NCBI RefSeq assembly: GCF_013409365.1
Contig: NZ_JACCBA010000001.1
Coordinates: forward strand, 9,362,001-9,426,000
Reading direction: 5' to 3'
DNA from: Actinomadura luteofluorescens
Lineage (GTDB): Bacteria > Actinomycetota > Actinomycetes > Streptosporangiales > Streptosporangiaceae
Length of the DNA: 64,000 nt
Both the position numbers and the translations under genes were made by a program. Positions 12,921 through 20,056 of this stretch are shown one piece after another. The notes below the pieces were generated by a model. The model did no database searches, had not been told where the DNA came from, and saw nothing but the letters and a program-made list of their open reading frames with translations. The first letter of the stretch is position 1. Each line of letters begins with the position of its first letter.

Positions 12921-13646
12921 GTGGAGCGCACGCCGCCGGACCGGTGCCGCGTACTGGAGTCCTACCAGGACGGGGTGAAGGCGGTCCGCTCCCTGGCGGA
13001 GACCGTCGCGGACTGGGACGTGCCGACGCCCTGCGCCGACTGGCAGCTGATCGACCTGGCGGGGCACCTGCGGTGCGTCGCGGAGAACTTCCTGGAGTAT
13101 CTCCAGGACGCGCCCGACAGCAGGCTGGCGAAGCTGTTCGCGCAGGACGCGGCCACGGCGGTGCTGATCAGGCAGCAGGCCCGGCAGAACGCGGCGGAGC
13201 TGGCGGTGCTGCCGCCCGAGCCCGGCCCGGAGCGGATCCTGGCGTTCGGGGTCTCGGCGGGGGCCTACGCCGACCTGCTGCCCGACATGTGGGACCGGAC
13301 GCATCTGATCTACCGGGGGACCAAGTACACGGTCGGCGACCACGCGGGCGCGGCGTGCGTGGAGTGGCACCTGCACGCCTGGGACCTGGCCCGTGCGATC
13401 GGGGCCGACTACCGGCCGCGCGACCCTGACCTGCTGGTGTCGGCCTGGCACTGGGGCGTCCCGCACCTGCCGCTGGAGCCGGGGGACTCGTGGGAGGCGG
13501 TGCTGCGCTCCTCGGGCCGCTCGCCGCGGTGGCCGGACCCCTCGGAGGGGCCCGGCCGGGCGCGGCGGCGGCGTTCGGGGCGGCAGTCCTCCGTCAGACG
13601 CCCGCCGGCCTCCCCGGGCGGGGCCGCAGGTAGACCAGCCAGGTGA
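12921..13646 (+). CDS. Mycothiol-dependent maleylpyruvate isomerase/DinB-like family protein
   Basis: The N-terminal 200 residues fit the actinobacterial TIGR03083-like family: a four-helix DinB-type bundle with WDVPTPCADWQLIDLAGHLRCV and, later, CVEWHLHAWDLARAIG, the His residues being likely metal ligands. Members use or bind mycothiol. GTG at 12921 was chosen because GGGGGA lies 8 bases upstream. The last 35 residues are an Arg/Ser/Pro-rich tail, and the final 53 bases are antisense to the end of narK. This looks like readthrough beyond a lost stop, since the family normally ends earlier. Confidence 0.75.
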   Translation: MERTPPDRCRVLESYQDGVKAVRSLAETVADWDVPTPCADWQLIDLAGHLRCVAENFLEYLQDAPDSRLAKLFAQDAATAVLIRQQARQNAAELAVLPPEPGPERILAFGVSAGAYADLLPDMWDRTHLIYRGTKYTVGDHAGAACVEWHLHAWDLARAIGADYRPRDPDLLVSAWHWGVPHLPLEPGDSWEAVLRSSGRSPRWPDPSEGPGRARRRRSGRQSSVRRPPASPGGAAGRPAR

Positions 13647-14967
13647 GCGCGCAGCACACGGCGTAGAAGGCGATGAACGCGACGTAGGCGCCGTCGCCCG
13701 TCCCGTAGGTCAGGAACGACTGCCGGAACACGATGTTGACCAGCACGCCGCCGAACGCGCCGACGGCGCCCGCGATGCCGATCAGCGCTCCGGCGAGGCG
13801 GCGGGCCTCGTGCTCGGCGGCGGCCGGGTCGCCGCCGGCCGCGACGCCGGCCTGGCCCTTCGCCCTGAAGATCGCCGGGATCATCTTGTAGGTGGACCCG
13901 TTGCCGAGGCCGCTGAAGGCGAACAGCAGCACGAAGCCGGTGAGGAACAGCGCGAGGGACCCCAGCCGCGAGGCGGTGAGCACGAGGACCGCCGAGACGG
14001 CCATCGCCACGAACGTCGCGAAGGTGACCCTCGCGCCGCCGAGCCGGTCGGCGAGCCACCCGCCGGCGGGGCGGATCACGGACCCGAGCGCGGGGCCGAG
14101 GAAGGTCAGGTAGGCGGCCTTGATCGGGGTGTCGAACTCGGCCTTGAACTGCACCTGCAGGACCTGGCCGAACGCGAAGCCGAACCCGATGAACGACCCG
14201 AAGGTGCCGATGTAGAGCACCGACATGATCCAGGTGTGGGCGTCCCCGCAGACGTCGCGCATGGCCCGCCTGTCGTTGCGGGCGTGCGCGAGGTTGTCCA
14301 TGCCGAGCGCGGCGCCGAGGGCGGCGAGGACGATGAACGGGATGTAGACGCCCGCGACGAGGCCGGGGTGGTCCTTGCCCGCGGTGGCGAGGACGGCCAG
14401 CCCGACGAGCTGGACGACGGCGACGCCGAGGTTGCCACCGCCCGCGTTGATGCCGAGCGCCCACCCCTTGAGCCGCTGGGGGTAGAACGCGTTGATGTTC
14501 GCCATCGAGGACGCGAAGTTGCCGCCGCCGACGCCCGCGACGGCCGCCAGGACCAGCAGCGTGGTGAAGGAGACGCCGGGCTCGATGAGGACGGCGGCCA
14601 GCCCCGCCGGGACGAGCAGCAGCGTGGCGCTGAGGATCGTCCAGTTGCGGCCGCCGAACCGGGCGACGGCGAGGGTGTAGGGGATGCGCAGCGCCGACCC
14701 GATGAGCGCCGGGACGGCGGTGAGCGTGAACTTTCCGGCCGGGTCGATCCCGTAGGCGGGGCCGAGGAACAGCACGAGCACCGACCACAGCGTCCACACC
14801 GAGAACCCGATGTGCTCGGAGAAGATCGAGAACACGAGGTTGCGGCGGGCGGTCCGGGCCCCGCCGGCGGCCCAGAAGGCGGGGTCCTCGGGGTGCCAGT
14901 CGTCGATCCAGCGGCCCTTGCGCGGTCGGGCGCGCTCGGTTCGCGCGGCTTCGGTGGTGGCGGTCAT
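13594..14967 (-). CDS. narK: Nitrate/nitrite transporter, MFS (NarK type)
   Basis: The 457-residue protein has about 12 membrane segments and the nitrate signature GGGNFASSMANINAFYP; a related block is FSGLGNGSTYKMIPAIFR. These glycine-rich motifs line the substrate path in NarK/NRT2 proteins. It imports nitrate for the assimilatory reductase encoded just downstream on the other strand. The ATG at 14967 is preceded by AAGGAGA. The promoter carries a GlnR-like box plus a -10 in the same layout as the nitrate reductase and nirD promoters (14998-15054). Confidence 0.94.
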   Translation of the reverse strand: MTATTEAARTERARPRKGRWIDDWHPEDPAFWAAGGARTARRNLVFSIFSEHIGFSVWTLWSVLVLFLGPAYGIDPAGKFTLTAVPALIGSALRIPYTLAVARFGGRNWTILSATLLLVPAGLAAVLIEPGVSFTTLLVLAAVAGVGGGNFASSMANINAFYPQRLKGWALGINAGGGNLGVAVVQLVGLAVLATAGKDHPGLVAGVYIPFIVLAALGAALGMDNLAHARNDRRAMRDVCGDAHTWIMSVLYIGTFGSFIGFGFAFGQVLQVQFKAEFDTPIKAAYLTFLGPALGSVIRPAGGWLADRLGGARVTFATFVAMAVSAVLVLTASRLGSLALFLTGFVLLFAFSGLGNGSTYKMIPAIFRAKGQAGVAAGGDPAAAEHEARRLAGALIGIAGAVGAFGGVLVNIVFRQSFLTYGTGDGAYVAFIAFYAVCCALTWLVYLRPRPGRPAGV

Positions 14968-14997: not shown

Positions 14998-15054
14998 CCG
15001 ACCGTAGGAATCCGGGGTTTCGCGCGTGTGTGACCGGTCATACGGCAGTGATAA
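14998..15054 (-). promoter_or_regulatory. GlnR-like box and -10 element of narK
   Basis: Read on the minus strand from 15054: TTATC-N6-GTATG-N6-CACAC-N6-GAAAC (GAAAC at 15021-15017), then 8 bases, then CC-TACGGT-CGG (15008-14998). The 11-base spacing of half-sites and the final GAAAC fit the GlnR pattern (gTnAC-N6-GaAAc repeated), although the two middle half-sites are weak. TACGGT would be the -10, giving a leader of about 25 bases before narK. Confidence 0.6.
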
Positions 15055-15157
15055 CTCCGCTGCACAGCGTGTCCCGCCCGCTGTGAGGCGCGGGTAGACC
15101 CGGGTTCGCCCGGGTAGGCACCGAAGGCGAGGCGGCGGGGGAACGGAGACGCTGACT

Positions 15158-15406
15158 ATGGGAACCTGCGAGGTCTGCGGGAACGAGTACGCGATGGCGT
15201 TCGAGGTGCACGCGCAGGGCGAGGTGCACACGTTCGACTCGTTCGAGTGCGCGGTCACCAAGATGGCGCCGATCTGCGAGCACTGCCAGTGCCGCATCAT
15301 GGGCCATGGCGTGGACGTGGGCGGGCACTTCTACTGCTGCGCCCATTGCGCCCACGCGGCCGAGCCCGAACGCGCCCGCACGATCCAGGACGCCGTGACC
15401 GTGTAG
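15158..15406 (+). CDS. Small Cys-rich metal-binding protein (zinc-ribbon/metallothionein-like)
   Basis: The 82-residue product has nine cysteines arranged as CEVCG (4, 7), FDSFEC, CEHCQC and CCAHC, plus several histidines (EHCQCRIMGHG, YCCAHCAHAA), the pattern of a metal-binding knuckle protein. Similar short proteins occur across actinomycetes and are sometimes annotated as metallothionein. The ATG at 15158 follows GGGGGAACGGAG with 10 bases spacing. It is divergent from narK and shares the 190-base control region containing the GlnR-like box. Confidence 0.75.
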   Translation: MGTCEVCGNEYAMAFEVHAQGEVHTFDSFECAVTKMAPICEHCQCRIMGHGVDVGGHFYCCAHCAHAAEPERARTIQDAVTV

Positions 15407-15474
15407 GGAGCGGTGTCTTCACACGCGTGGTGCGGGTGTAGGCGAAGGTGCCGGTGCGACCGCCCGGCCCGGGC

Positions 15475-15972
15475 TCAGGCGCGGGCGGTCCCGAACGCCT
15501 GCTCGCGGCCGTCCTCCAGGTAGACGGCGTTGCCGGCGGCCATGGCGCGGAGGCTGGGCTCCATCCGGCGCGACACGTGCGGCGGGGCGAGCTCGGGGAC
15601 CTTCTCGGGAGCCACGAGGATGTGGTCGGACAGCTCCTCGGGCGGCAGCCGGATCGCCGCGATCTCCGCGCCGGTGATGGTGCCGCCGAACACGAAGACG
15701 TTCACCGCGTCGACGCCGTCGTCGCGCGGGGACCCCCAGTCGACGCAGGCCAGCCCGTGCAGCCGGGGGACGAGGCCGAGCTCCTCCTCGCATTCGCGCA
15801 CGCACGCCGACAGCGGGGACTCGTCGGCCTCGATCACCCCGCCGGGCAGGAACCAGCCCTCGCTGTAGGTGGGCTTGACCAGCAGCACCCGCCCCAGGTC
15901 GTCCAGCAGCAGGGCCGCCGCGGCGCCGCGGGCCCGCGGCAGGGAGGCGTAGTAGGCAAGGTCGGGCAACAT
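15475..15972 (-). CDS. Nudix hydrolase
   Basis: The 165-residue product has a complete Nudix box, GGVIEADESPLSACVRECEE followed by ELG, matching Gx5Ex7REuxEExGu. The N-terminus ARGAAAALLLDDLGRVLLVKP is the usual leading strand of the fold. It hydrolyses a nucleoside-diphosphate-X compound; the substrate cannot be read from sequence. It is convergent with the Cys-rich protein gene and divergent from the nitrate reductase gene, separated by about 290 bases of regulatory DNA. Confidence 0.9.
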   Translation of the reverse strand: MLPDLAYYASLPRARGAAAALLLDDLGRVLLVKPTYSEGWFLPGGVIEADESPLSACVRECEEELGLVPRLHGLACVDWGSPRDDGVDAVNVFVFGGTITGAEIAAIRLPPEELSDHILVAPEKVPELAPPHVSRRMEPSLRAMAAGNAVYLEDGREQAFGTARA

Positions 15973-16120
15973 GCTCCGAGGTTAATTGTGATCACCCCGG
16001 GCCGGTTCCGGCCGCCGCGGGGCGGGGGCCGCATCCGTCCGCGGGATCGCCGGGCCACCGCGAATCCGTTCGGCAACCGGGCAAAAGGCAACGAATAGGC
16101 CATGACAGGGATCGACAACG

Positions 16121-16147
16121 CTTGACACGCGTTCGTCAAGGCGTGTC
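16121..16147. promoter_or_regulatory. Overlapping inverted repeats upstream of nitrate reductase
   Basis: CTTGAC (16121-16126) pairs with GTCAAG (16135-16140), and GACACGC (16124-16130) pairs with GCGTGTC (16141-16147). Two interlocked palindromes suggest a regulator site, possibly for the NnaR-like protein encoded at 18842 or for the Nudix gene promoter. TTGACA at 16169-16174 nearby resembles a -35 box. Confidence 0.4.
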
Positions 16148-16201
16148 GCGATCCCGCGGGGCGAATCCTTGACATCGAGGGGCGTACGGCGTGAACGCCA
16201 T

Positions 16202-16258
16202 TTAACGCCGGGGTCACACCCGGGACTCGGCGGCGAAACCGGGCACGCCGAGTCTCGG
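16202..16258 (+). promoter_or_regulatory. GlnR-like box and -10 element of the nitrate reductase gene
   Basis: TTAAC (16202)-N6-GTCAC (16213)-N6-GACTC (16224)-N6-GAAAC (16235) keeps the 11-base pitch of actinomycete GlnR sites. Eight bases later comes CC-GAGTCT-CGG (16248-16258), equivalent in position and sequence to CC-GAGTAT-CGG at nirD. If GAGTCT is the -10, transcription starts about at the ATG (16262), which implies a leaderless mRNA. Confidence 0.72.
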
Positions 16259-16261
16259 CGG

Positions 16262-18364
16262 ATGGCCGCGACTCCCACGCACTGCCCGTACTGCGCGCTG
16301 CAGTGCGGCATGTCCCTGCACGACGGCGGCTCGGAGCCCCTGCGGGTGGAGCCGCGCGACGACGTGCCGGCCAACGCCGGCGGGCTCTGCCAGAAGGGGT
16401 GGACGGCGGCCGAGCTGCTCACCGTCCCCGACCGGCTGACCGCGCCGATGATGCGCCGCGGCCGGGACGCGCCGCTGGAGCCGTGCGGCTGGGACGAGGC
16501 CCTCGACCGGATCACCGCCGAGATCGGCCGGCTGCGCGGGCTGCACGGGCCGGACTCCGTCGCGGTGTTCGGCGGCGGCGGGCTGACCAACGAGAAGGCG
16601 TACCAGCTCGGCAAGTTCGCGCGGATCGCCCTCGGCACCTCCCAGATCGACTACAACGGGCGGTTCTGCATGTCGTCGGCCGCCGCGGCGTCCGGGCGGG
16701 CGTTCGGCATGGACCGCGGCCTGCCCGGCCCGGTCACCGACCTCGCGGCGTCCGGCGCGGTCCTGCTCGCGGGCGGCAACGTCGCCGAGACGATGCCGCC
16801 GTTCATGCGGCACCTGGCGCGGATGCGCGAGGGGGGCGGCGCCCTCATCGTCGTGGACCCGCGCCGCACCGCCACCGCGCGGCAGGCCGACCTGCACCTG
16901 CAGCCGACGCCCGGGACCGACATCGCCCTTGCCAACGGGCTGCTGCACCTGGCGCTCGCCGAGGGCCTGGCCGACGAGGAGTACATCGCGGCCCGCACCA
17001 CCGGGTTCGACGCCGTCCGCACGGTCGCCAACGCCTACTGGCCCGACCGCGCCGAGCGCATCACCGGCGTGCCCGTGCCGCTGATGCGCGAGGCCGCCCG
17101 GCTGCTGGCCCGCGCCGCCCGCGCCCACGTCCTGACGGCGCGGGGATCGGAGCAGCACGCCCGCGGCACCGACACCGTCAGCGCCTTCATCAACCTGGCC
17201 CTCGCGCTCGGGCTGCCGGGCCGCGCGGGCTCCGGCTACGGCTGCCTGACCGGGCAGGGTAACGGGCAGGGAGGGCGCGAGCACGGGCAGAAGGCCGACC
17301 AGCTCCCCGGCTACCGCCGGATCGACGACCCGGAGGCCCGCGCGCATGTCGCCGGGGTCTGGGGCGTCGACCCCGGCGACCTGCCGGGACCGGGACGGTC
17401 GGCCTACGAGCTGCTGTCGGCGCTCGGCACCGCGGAGGGCCCGAAGGCGCTGCTGCTGTTCGGGTCGAACCCGGTCGTGTCGGCGCCCGGCGCCGCGGGC
17501 GTGGAGGAGCGGCTCGGCGCGCTGGACCTGCTGGTGGTGGCCGACTTCGTGCCGTCGGAGACCGCGCGGCGCGCCGACGTCGTCCTGCCGACCGCGCAGT
17601 GGGCCGAGGAGTCGGGGACGATGACGAACCTGGAGGGCCGGGTGCTGCGCCGCCGCCGCGCCGTCCGCCCGCCGGACGGCGTGCGCACCGACCTGGAGAT
17701 CCTCGCCGCGCTCGCCGGGCGGCTCAAGGCGCCGGGGGAGTGGAGCACCGACCCGCGGGCGGTGTTCGGGGAGCTGCGCCGCGCCAGCGCGGGCGGCACC
17801 GCCGACTACTCCGGCATCAGCTACGAGCGGATCGAGGCCGAGGGCGGGGTGTTCTGGCCCTGCCCGTCGCCCGGCCACCCCGGCACGCCGCGGCCCTACC
17901 TGGACCGCTTCCCCACTCCGGACGGGCGGGCCCGGTTCGTCCCCGTCGAGCACCGCGGCGCCGCCGAGGACGTCGACGCTGACTACCCGGTGTACCTGAC
18001 CACCGGGCGCGTCCTCGCGCAGTACCAGTCGGGCGCGCAGACCCGCCGCGTCCGCCGGCTGGCCGAGGCGGCGCCGGGGCCGTTCGTCGAGCTGCACCCC
18101 GACCTGGCCGGGCGCCTCGGCATCGAGGACGGCGCCGGCGTGCGGGTGGAGAGCCGCCGGGGCGCGGCCACCGTGACCGCCCGCCTGACCGGCGCGATCC
18201 GCCCCGACACCGTCTTCATCCCGTTCCACTGGGCGGGGGAGGGCCGCGCGAACCTGCTCACCAACCCCGCGCTGGACCCGGTCTCGCGGATGCCGGAGTT
18301 CAAGGTGTGCGCCGTCCGCCTGCGGGCCGTGGCGGAGGGGGACGGCGCCCCCGGCGCACGGTGA
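16262..18364 (+). CDS. nasC: Assimilatory nitrate reductase, molybdopterin catalytic subunit
   Basis: The 700-residue product is a molybdopterin oxidoreductase of the NasC/NarB type. The N-terminus HCPYCALQCGM with GGLCQKGW about 30 residues later supplies the four Cys of the 4Fe-4S cluster. KGWTAAELLTVPDRL, NYNGRFCMSSAAAASG-like block (YNGRFCMSSAAAASGRAFG) and GSGYGCLTGQGNGQGG are molybdopterin-binding regions, and the C-terminal GADGV-type domain (DADYPVYLTTGRVLAQYQSG) is present. There is no C-terminal BFD-like extension. The start is fixed by the Cys motif; the frame is open to 16169. In Streptomyces the orthologous enzyme is called NasA. It reduces cytoplasmic nitrate to nitrite. Confidence 0.93.
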   Translation: MAATPTHCPYCALQCGMSLHDGGSEPLRVEPRDDVPANAGGLCQKGWTAAELLTVPDRLTAPMMRRGRDAPLEPCGWDEALDRITAEIGRLRGLHGPDSVAVFGGGGLTNEKAYQLGKFARIALGTSQIDYNGRFCMSSAAAASGRAFGMDRGLPGPVTDLAASGAVLLAGGNVAETMPPFMRHLARMREGGGALIVVDPRRTATARQADLHLQPTPGTDIALANGLLHLALAEGLADEEYIAARTTGFDAVRTVANAYWPDRAERITGVPVPLMREAARLLARAARAHVLTARGSEQHARGTDTVSAFINLALALGLPGRAGSGYGCLTGQGNGQGGREHGQKADQLPGYRRIDDPEARAHVAGVWGVDPGDLPGPGRSAYELLSALGTAEGPKALLLFGSNPVVSAPGAAGVEERLGALDLLVVADFVPSETARRADVVLPTAQWAEESGTMTNLEGRVLRRRRAVRPPDGVRTDLEILAALAGRLKAPGEWSTDPRAVFGELRRASAGGTADYSGISYERIEAEGGVFWPCPSPGHPGTPRPYLDRFPTPDGRARFVPVEHRGAAEDVDADYPVYLTTGRVLAQYQSGAQTRRVRRLAEAAPGPFVELHPDLAGRLGIEDGAGVRVESRRGAATVTARLTGAIRPDTVFIPFHWAGEGRANLLTNPALDPVSRMPEFKVCAVRLRAVAEGDGAPGAR

Positions 18365-18371
18365 GCCCCTT

Positions 18372-18428
18372 TTAACACGGCGGTGACAAAGGAGACCCAA
18401 CCGCGAAACCGCCCCTTCCGAGTATCGG
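18372..18428 (+). promoter_or_regulatory. GlnR-like box and -10 element of nirD
   Basis: TTAAC (18372)-N6-GTGAC (18383)-N6-GACCC (18394)-N6-GAAAC (18405), then 8 bases, then CC-GAGTAT-CGG (18418-18428). The layout is the same as in front of the nitrate reductase gene. The start begins 8 bases after the nitrate reductase stop, so nirD has its own nitrogen-controlled promoter. Leader about 34 bases to the ATG at 18466. Confidence 0.75.
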
Positions 18429-18465: not shown

Positions 18466-18858
18466 ATGACCACGACACCCGAAGCGACGATCGTCAGGGA
18501 GAGGGCGGGCCGCCCCGCGGCCCGCTGGTTCGACATCTGCTCCTACGCCGGCCTGACCCCCGAGCGGGGCGCCTGCGCGATGGTGGACGGCACGCAGGTG
18601 GCGATCTTCCGGACCTTCGACGGAGGCCTGTACGCGCTGTCGAACCTCGACCCTTTCAGCGGCGCCTGCGTGCTGTCGCGGGGGATCCTCGGCACCAGGG
18701 ACGAGGCCCCGACGGTCGCGTCCCCCATGTACAAGCAGGTGTTCGACCTGCGGACCGGGGTGTGCCTGGACGATCCCCGGGTGGCGCTTCCGACCTTCCC
18801 GGTCCGCCGCTCCGGGGACCGGGTGGAGGTGGCGCTCACCGATGAGCACCGGCAGTGA
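18466..18858 (+). CDS. nirD: Nitrite reductase small subunit NirD (Rieske-like fold)
   Basis: The 130-residue product matches assimilatory NirD: WFDICSYAGLTPERGACAMV, YALSNLDPFSGACVLSRGI and VASPMYKQVFDLRTGVCLDD. NirD has a Rieske fold but usually lacks cluster ligands, and none (CxH) is seen here. It normally works with the siroheme/flavin subunit NirB in reducing nitrite to ammonia; nirB is absent from this window. AGGAGG lies 10 bases before the ATG. Its end overlaps the next gene by 17 bases, so nirD, the NnaR-like gene and the chelatase gene probably form one operon. Confidence 0.92.
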   Translation: MTTTPEATIVRERAGRPAARWFDICSYAGLTPERGACAMVDGTQVAIFRTFDGGLYALSNLDPFSGACVLSRGILGTRDEAPTVASPMYKQVFDLRTGVCLDDPRVALPTFPVRRSGDRVEVALTDEHRQ

Positions 18859-20056
18859 GCCGCTGGCCGGGTTCGCCGTCGGCGTGACCGCGGCCCGGCG
18901 CCACGAGGAGCTCGCGACGCTGCTGGAGCGGCGCGGGGCGAGGGTCGTGCTGGCGCCCGCCATCCGCCTGGTCCCGCTCGCCGACGACGCCGAGCTGCTG
19001 GAGGCCACCCGGGCGTGCCTGTCCGGGCCGCTCGACCACGTCGTGGTCACGACCGGGATCGGGTTCCGGGCGTGGCTGGAGGCGGCCGACGGGCACGGCA
19101 TGCGCGACGCCCTCATCGCCCGCCTGGCCGAGACCGACATCCTGGCGCGCGGCCCGAAGGCGCGCGGCGCGATCCGGTCGGCGGGCCTGCAGGAGCGCTG
19201 GTCGCCGGACTCGGAGGAGTGCGCCGAGGTGATCCGGCACCTGCTGGACCGGGAGCCGGCCGGGGCGCGCGTGGCCGTGCAGCTGTACGGGGAGCGCCAG
19301 CCGGAGCTGATAGCGGCGCTGCGCGCGGCCGGCGCCGAGGTGATCGAGATCCCGGTGTACCGGTGGTCGCGGTCGGAGGACTCCACGCAGCTGCGCCGCC
19401 TCGTGGGGCAGGCGGTCGCGGGCACGATCGACGCGATCACCTTCACCAGCGCGCCGGCGGTCGCCGCGACGCTCGCCGTCGCCGCGGAGGACGACCTGGA
19501 GGAGGCCCTGCTGGAGGCCATGCGCACCCATGTCGTGGCGGCGTGCGTCGGCCCGGTGACGGCGCAGGCGCTCACCGACCGCGGCGTCCCGACCGTCCAG
19601 CCCGAGCGCGCCCGGCTCGGCGCGCTCGTGCGGGCCCTGGTCGCCGACCTGCCGCGGCGCCGGTCGCGGCGGCTGTCGGTGCGGGGGTTCTCGCTGGAGC
19701 TGCGCGGGCACGCCGTCGTCCTGGACGGCCAGTTGCGGCCGATCGCGCCCGCGCCCATGGCGATCCTGCGGGCCCTCGCGCGGCGCCCCGGGCACGTGGT
19801 GTCGCGGGCGGAGCTGTGCGGGGTGCTGCCGGGCCGGCTCGCCGTCGCGCCCGGGATCAGGGACGCCTGGGCGCGGGAGGCGCGGCCCCGCGACGCCCGC
19901 CCGCAGGCGGACGAGCACGCGGTGGAGATGGCGGTGGCGCGGCTGCGGCGCGGCCTCGGCCGGCCCGGCATCGTCGAGACCGTCGTCAAGCGCGGCTACC
20001 GGCTGGCCTGCGACCCGCGGATCGCCGACCGGCTCCCGGCGGGCGCCGGTGGCTGA
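18842..20056 (+). CDS. nnaR: HemD-like domain fused to a winged-helix DNA-binding domain (NnaR-type nitrate regulator)
   Basis: Residues 1 to about 265 form a uroporphyrinogen-III synthase-like domain (GFAVGVTAARRHEELATLLE, VVVTTGIGFRAWLEAA, AITFTSAPAVAATLAVAAE). From about 275 to 395 comes an OmpR-type winged helix (LRPIAPAPMAILRALARRPG and VEMAVARLRRGLG, then GIVETVVKRGYRLA). This architecture belongs to the actinobacterial group including mycobacterial NnaR, a nitrate/nitrite assimilation regulator that acts with GlnR. The gene is cotranscribed with nirD (17-base overlap), which fits that role. Whether the HemD part is still an enzyme or only senses a tetrapyrrole cannot be told from sequence. 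Confidence 0.85.
   Translation: MSTGSEPLAGFAVGVTAARRHEELATLLERRGARVVLAPAIRLVPLADDAELLEATRACLSGPLDHVVVTTGIGFRAWLEAADGHGMRDALIARLAETDILARGPKARGAIRSAGLQERWSPDSEECAEVIRHLLDREPAGARVAVQLYGERQPELIAALRAAGAEVIEIPVYRWSRSEDSTQLRRLVGQAVAGTIDAITFTSAPAVAATLAVAAEDDLEEALLEAMRTHVVAACVGPVTAQALTDRGVPTVQPERARLGALVRALVADLPRRRSRRLSVRGFSLELRGHAVVLDGQLRPIAPAPMAILRALARRPGHVVSRAELCGVLPGRLAVAPGIRDAWAREARPRDARPQADEHAVEMAVARLRRGLGRPGIVETVVKRGYRLACDPRIADRLPAGAGG

Follow-up and report, generated by a model that had tools for sequence, protein, structure and literature searches.

The closest described counterparts of the promoters treated here are the GlnR promoters of actinomycetes (amtB, glnA, nasA and nirB), in which an activator of nitrogen genes uses half-sites arranged in an a-b-a-b series at an 11-bp pitch. 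In the pho-box promoters of Escherichia coli, a different OmpR-family regulator, PhoB, uses direct repeats of a different half-site sequence, which replace the -35 element at a 10-bp distance. The spacing between this box and the core promoter has been described as strict (PMC10294691). For GlnR, the consensus gTnAc-n6-GaAAc-n6-GtnAC-n6-GAAAc has been reported, together with an activation complex in which four DNA-binding domains bind head to tail (PMC10704036), and the nasA promoter of Streptomyces coelicolor contains two GTAAC sites (PMC3087709). In Mycobacterium smegmatis and S. coelicolor, an NnaR dyad is found by the GlnR box of the same genes with a fairly conserved spacing (PMC6277429, PMC11162112), and leaderless features have been noted for GlnR/NnaR targets in Mycobacterium (PMC6277429). 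Here, a stretch of 64,000 nucleotides from Actinomadura luteofluorescens (NCBI RefSeq assembly GCF_013409365.1, contig NZ_JACCBA010000001.1, positions 9,362,001 to 9,426,000 of the forward strand), hereafter the window and numbered from its first base, is analysed with regard to the promoters of assimilatory nitrate reductase (narB), the nitrite reductase small subunit (nirD) and a nitrate/nitrite transporter (narK).

These three promoters, and that of nirB elsewhere in the same genome, are very likely activator-dependent GlnR-type promoters of a nitrate/nitrite assimilation regulon, which would work like those of the OmpR/PhoB family, with the activator in place of the -35 element. Their elements in the window are the following:

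16169..16173, plus strand: TTGAC, possible left arm of an NnaR-like dyad at narB (17 bases before GTGAA)
16191..16195, plus strand: GTGAA, in register upstream of the narB half-sites
16202..16239, plus strand: narB GlnR-type half-sites TTAAC, GTCAC, GACTC and GAAAC, at an 11-bp pitch
16250..16255, plus strand: narB -10 box GAGTCT (NANNNT), 10 bp past GAAAC
18361..18365, plus strand: GTGAG, in register at the nirD promoter, overlapping the narB stop codon
18372..18409, plus strand: nirD GlnR-type half-sites TTAAC, GTGAC, GACCC and GAAAC
18420..18425, plus strand: nirD -10 box GAGTAT, with a predicted leader of about 34 nt and AGGAGG before the ATG at 18466
15083..15087, minus strand: CTCAC, left arm of the narK NnaR-like dyad
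15061..15065, minus strand: GTGCA at narK, the in-register site and right arm of that dyad
15017..15054, minus strand (5' end at 15054): narK half-sites TTATC, GTATG, CACAC and GAAAC
15001..15006, minus strand: narK -10 box TACGGT, with a predicted leader of about 27 nt

The initial annotation of the window had described a single exact layout for the three promoters, in which four half-sites end in GAAAC and are followed, after eight bases, by a -10 box framed by CC and CGG. The string TTAAC-N6-GTSAC-N6-GACYC-N6-GAAAC, reported for two of them, is indeed present in the window, at 16202(+) and 18372(+) only, and GAAAC-N8-CC-N5-T-CGG has three copies in the 64 kb, at narB, nirD and narK; its relaxed form GAAAC-N8-CC-N6-CGG occurs only at 16235(+), 18405(+) and 15021(-). 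The narB and nirD half-sites agree in register with the published GlnR consensus, apart from a third site that reads GACYC and not GTnAC, and those of narK agree in part. In 150 simulated first-order Markov sequences of 64 kb, this relaxed form was found 0.20 times on average (maximum 2) against the three copies observed, and GAAAC-N10-NANNNT 0.52 times (maximum 3), also against three. The four-half-site string, observed twice, and GTG[AC]-N7-TTA[AT]C-N28-GAAAC, observed three times, never appeared in the simulations. Therefore, taken by itself, CC/CGG departs only moderately from what chance would give, and it is the half-site series that lies beyond chance.

The conservation of the layout was followed in two sets of relatives. 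Within the genus, the narB loci of 46 out of 65 genomes were used, the other genomes showing only distant homologues; one of these loci (L123) fell under the score cut, so that 45 were scored, and it still has GTAAC-N10-TACGTT. To these were added 31 nirD sites and 27 narK sites (103 sites in total), the latter kept from 30 aligned rows after removal of L117, L121 and L126, which are not narK promoters. The wider narB set consists of the best 80 of at least 588 candidates, in named records, and includes metagenome-assembled genomes, one of them labelled Proteobacteria. In the genus narB alignment, hardly any variation is seen in TTAAC, GTSAC and GAAAC or in the A and T of the -10 box, and the NANNNT box is found at every genus site of narB (45/45), nirD (31/31) and narK (27/27). 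In the wider set, 66 of the 80 loci have GWAAY-N10-NANNNT no further than 300 bp upstream, against 0 to 6 loci for each other spacer from 0 to 25. The 66 loci include Streptomyces, Micromonosporaceae and Streptosporangiaceae. Those of Streptomyces, mostly with GTAAC and with the same spacer to boxes such as CACGCT, resemble nasA of S. coelicolor, unlike Actinomadura, which has four recognisable half-sites ending in GAAAC. Spacer 10, the only one counted in this case, was also found in 25 of 35 wider narK loci. At amtB, a standard GlnR target, GAAAC/T-N10-NANNNT is present in 29 of the 30 best-scoring genus loci, and no other spacer exceeds 13 loci, a level probably explained by the several GAAAC copies of amtB. 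Taking into account that spacer 10 appears both at amtB and in the wider narK loci, the 10-bp spacer seems to be a rule of GlnR promoters and not a peculiarity of nitrate genes. Neither this rule nor a leaderless narB across orders was found stated in the open-access literature, insofar as its text was accessible, and both may still have been published. The loose published GlnR consensus would thereby be sharpened to a promoter rule with single-base precision (GWAAY-N10-NANNNT, followed at narB by the start codon), from which the transcription start, the operon boundary and the start codon could be predicted.

The genome contains a GlnR orthologue with 77% identity over residues 1-236 of an S. 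coelicolor GlnR query sequence. Its product matches, over nearly the whole length, the PDB entries 8hih (four copies) and 8hig, which name only a response regulator; it also matches 4o1h, with a chain named GlnR. We take 8hih to be the GlnR activation complex. Half-sites, a GlnR gene and an amtB-like geometry, the features looked for in a GlnR promoter, were all found. From this arrangement we infer binding, a response to nitrogen and the positions of the 5' ends. When nitrogen is low, GlnR molecules would line up head to tail over the four half-sites, all on the same side of the DNA helix. Because the -10 box is a poor one and begins 10 bp beyond the end of the half-site nearest to it, GlnR would substitute for the missing -35 element, its contact with RNA polymerase fixing the spacing. 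NnaR would probably assist at narK, with a possible role at narB and nirD as well, and the upstream GTGAR site may be occupied by NnaR or by further GlnR.

The same geometry bears on the start of narB, whose transcript would begin at the A of its own ATG. That the predicted start of transcription coincides with this codon had already been proposed, and the position agrees, with the small correction that the start codon lies at 16262: six bases separate the -10 hexamer at 16250-16255 from the predicted +1, the A of this ATG. Within the genus, counted from the first base of the -10 box, the first narB codon is found at 12 or 13 nt in 43 of 45 sites, and in the wider set an in-frame ATG or GTG is found at 12, 13 or 14 nt in 63 of 80 loci (19, 35 and 9, respectively). 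Across these 63 loci, between 27 and 100 nt separate the last half-site from the aligned NarB region. Thus, with a constant distance to the -10 box and a variable one to the protein domain, the start codon follows the promoter and not the domain, and a leaderless narB transcript is, by the position of its start codon, a well-supported prediction. In the window, nirD and narK have short predicted leaders with Shine-Dalgarno-like sequences.

A sequence-only promoter profile, built from 50 narB, nirD and narK sites of the genus, was used to scan the 9.6 Mb of the genome, in which the window belongs to a single contig of 9.62 Mb. Only four strong matches were obtained, corresponding to narB (63.7 bits), nirD (63.6), narK (54.4) and nirB (30.1 bits, E 3.8e-6), and the next one has an E of 0.12, so that as a profile the rule picks nitrate/nitrite genes from a whole genome. 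The matches at narB, nirD and narK in the genus arise by construction, because the profile was trained on these promoters, and nirB was outside the training set. The nirB promoter, at G000:C1:54305-54372, is far from the narB cluster and has the same layout, with a -10 box that starts 13 nt before the nirB ATG and reads CC-GAGGAT-CGG. The pattern of the initial annotation would miss this site because GTAAT replaces GAAAC; this fourth promoter and the in-register GTGAR/GTGCR site had both been overlooked. The encoded NirB scores 544 bits against TIGR02374, under the cut-off of 578, probably owing to a truncation of the fetched frame. Profile matches at E ≤ 0.001 are present in 63 of the 65 genus genomes. 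Among the matches listed, 22 lying away from narB were examined, in 20 fetched stretches: 11 stand before nirB, 5 before nirD-nnaR, 3 before nnaR and 2 before narK. The remaining one, a strong layout match in genome G014 (L162, 105-172) reading GTGAG-TTAAC-GTGAC-GAAAC, has no nitrogen gene seen adjacent to it. Outside the genus, the 76 loci scanned yield 21 matches at E ≤ 0.01; of these, 20 lie at narB, and the Streptomyces loci have none.

The 31 genus nirD promoters differ in what follows them: in 7 nirD itself is leaderless, in 8 an out-of-frame ATG lies at 12-13 nt, and 16 have neither (4 of them with an ambiguous nirD start). The out-of-frame ATGs at the predicted +1 of nirD (L094, L095, L098, L100, L102-L104 and L125) begin with MNAG or MNIG. 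In 12 loci where nirB comes after such a promoter, NirB starts with MN, MS or MD plus a Gly-rich stretch in 8 and with MGAD in 4, the NirB of this genome being one of the latter. The simplest reading would be that nirB once preceded nirD in some Actinomadura, its start having been left behind. It has been considered, with even chances for and against, that the promoter and start of Actinomycetia narB form one hard-wired unit (half-site, 10 bp, -10 box, 6-8 bp, AUG), that leaderlessness has been selected across orders despite changes in N-terminus length, and that such a promoter can be passed between genes, as the nirD promoter with a nirB-like leaderless start would illustrate. With the spacer rule, selection for leaderless translation of a nitrogen-stress gene could also be put directly to the test.

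Upstream of the four half-sites, the three promoters of the window share a fifth site, located 11 bp (one turn) before the first half-site: GTGAA at narB, GTGAG at nirD and GTGCA at narK. The nirD site is GTGAG in 31/31 genus sites. Two descriptions of the NnaR motif have been published, ctCAC[ac]-16N-[tg]GTGag (PMC6277429) and CTCAC[AC][CG]-13 to 16-GTGAG (PMC11162112), and the fifth site of narK resembles half of this dyad. In a check of CTCAC-N(15-18)-GTGAG, the left arm CTCAC was found at all 27 genus narK sites, 21-23 bases upstream of GTG, with GTGCR as right arm. At narB, 33 of 45 sites have YTSAC at an offset of 22 or 23 bases before GTG, and the other offsets from 5 to 24 are not represented. 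Compared with M. smegmatis and S. coelicolor, the Actinomadura right arm stands in the 11-bp register directly upstream of the half-sites, and the left arm is weaker at narB and absent at nirD. The nnaR gene follows nirD directly, is linked to the nitrate genes and encodes the architecture of NnaR (HEM4 + Trans_reg_C). When the amtB sites described below are set against the arm counts, the published motifs and this architecture, NnaR binding is likely at narK and plausible at narB.

Several observations weigh against this account. At narK, with its series TTATC-N6-GTATG-N6-CACAC-N6-GAAAC, the first three of the four half-sites are poor GlnR matches, and nirB has GTAAT where GAAAC would be expected. 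The layout is lacking in 14 of the 80 wider narB loci; in 7 of these, a narK match ends no more than about 120 nt upstream, as would fit cotranscription. In Mycobacterium tuberculosis, the midpoints of GlnR peaks are found at differing distances from starts (for example -37, -30 and -23), with 18 of 28 peaks between -75 and +10 of mapped starts (PMC4950008), and therefore the spacer rule need not hold at all targets. In all conservation counts, moreover, the rows are related and not independent. As for NnaR, the left arm YTSAC at 22-24 bases upstream was found in 0/31 genus nirD sites, and GTG[AC] one turn before the first GAAAC half-site is also present at amtB, in 28 of 30 genus loci (L131, L178-L206), the amtB of this genome among those with GTG[AC] in register. 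In the review PMC10704036, amtB is not among the NnaR targets listed. The amtB counts for GTG[AC], and for the bases after the box, rest on a narrower box pattern written after the spacer count, which matched 30/30 loci, including the earlier miss.

The fifth site as a clear NnaR site is weakened by its presence at amtB. These same facts (the shared 11-bp register, the amtB sites and the nirD site without a left arm) favour an alternative in which all five sites are occupied by GlnR, or form a series common to GlnR promoters in general, with GTGAR unrelated to NnaR, which would act elsewhere or indirectly. This alternative is a tentative one, falling somewhat short of an even chance, since the left arms at narK and narB sit close to the published NnaR motif spacing and the nnaR gene is adjacent.

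What has to be considered next is the frame around the -10 box. Both CC and CGG are exact in just 38 of the 103 genus sites (narB 16/45, nirD 11/31, narK 11/27) and in 2 of the 66 wider narB sites, one of them from Streptomyces, and the frame as a fixed downstream part, as had been suggested, does not hold. Separately, CC is exact in 17/45, 16/31 and 24/27 genus sites of narB, nirD and narK, and CGG in 31/45, 14/31 and 12/27; in the 66 wider narB sites, CC was found in 6 and CGG in 16. The first C of CC is present in 31/31 genus nirD sites, and after the amtB -10 box CTG is found in 27/30 genus loci and CGG in 2/30. The mean information per column for CC, CGG and spacer is 0.31, 0.63 and 0.64 bit at narB, 0.88, 0.73 and 1.02 bit at nirD, and 0.96, 0.83 and 0.69 bit at narK, the last calculated from the 30 rows including the 3 false ones. 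Among the 80 best narB loci, the exact GAAAC-N8-CC-N6-CGG occurs in 5 (L001, L002, L012, L017 and L053), placed at narB, nirD and narK in L002, at nirD in L001 and at narK in L017. The genus counts, the wider narB set and amtB rule out CC-[-10]-CGG as one conserved element, and CC and CGG look like preferences of single promoters and lineages. Thus, of the interpretation given by the initial annotation, the GlnR-type half-sites, the fixed -10 distance and the predicted leaderless start of narB are retained, and CC and CGG as shared fixed parts are not.

It could still be argued that the frame is an element of its own, for instance a repressor operator with an inverted repeat over the -10 box. 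CCGA-N3-TCGG does cross this box at three of the four promoters of this genome (narB, nirD and nirB). The CC of narK is kept before a TANNNT box in 21 of 25 sites beyond the genus (for example L006-L009, L016, L017, L075 and L077), with CGG exact there in 5/25, and CGG follows the box in 10 of 12 Streptosporangiaceae narB loci. However, the repeat is absent at narK and broken in relatives, and the low joint counts of CC and CGG also make such an operator improbable. In the window, a longer inverted repeat, CGCCGAG-T-CTCGGCG at 16248-16262, spans the narB -10 box and the transcription start, and is likewise broken in relatives.

A related OmpR-family regulator, MtrA or PhoP, as main occupant of the half-sites is the least probable alternative and a very unlikely one: MtrA has a motif almost the same as that of GlnR, and competition between GlnR and PhoP for glnA and amtB has been described in another species (PMC6277429), but all four strong matches in this genome lie at nitrate/nitrite genes and amtB has the same layout, both as expected for GlnR.

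The genes served by the putative GlnR-type promoters of the window, together with nnaR, are the following:

16262..18364, plus strand: narB/nasA, assimilatory nitrate reductase, with Pfam Molybdop_Fe4S4 from residue 1, Molybdopterin and Molydop_binding
18466..18858, plus strand: nirD, nitrite reductase small subunit, TIGR02378 over cut-off
18842..20056, plus strand: nnaR, a HemD-like domain fused to an OmpR-type DNA-binding domain, overlapping the nirD end
13594..14967, minus strand: narK, nitrate/nitrite transporter, Pfam MFS_1 over cut-off

The top NCBIfam of the narB product is NasC, with 774 bits, under the cut-off of 1100, and its closest named relative among the matches listed is that of A. 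mexicana, with 96%. The narK product reaches 286.9 bits against TIGR00886, also under the cut-off (311.7), and the nnaR product matches Pfam HEM4 and Trans_reg_C as well as NF005568, all over cut-off. The gene order in the region is narK (minus), a small cysteine-rich gene, a NUDIX gene (minus), narB, nirD and nnaR. The product of the cysteine-rich gene (15158-15406), in the interval between narK and NUDIX, has a weak match, below cut-off, to the Pfam prokaryotic metallothionein family. In other genera (L011, L020, L021, L040, L059 and L061), narB is followed by a second NirB-like protein of about 40% identity, at the place where the window has nirD. Finally, two narB homologues (G015:C1:3214176-3216313 and G043:C284:2069-4186) match in separate pieces, owing to a frameshift or a sequencing error.

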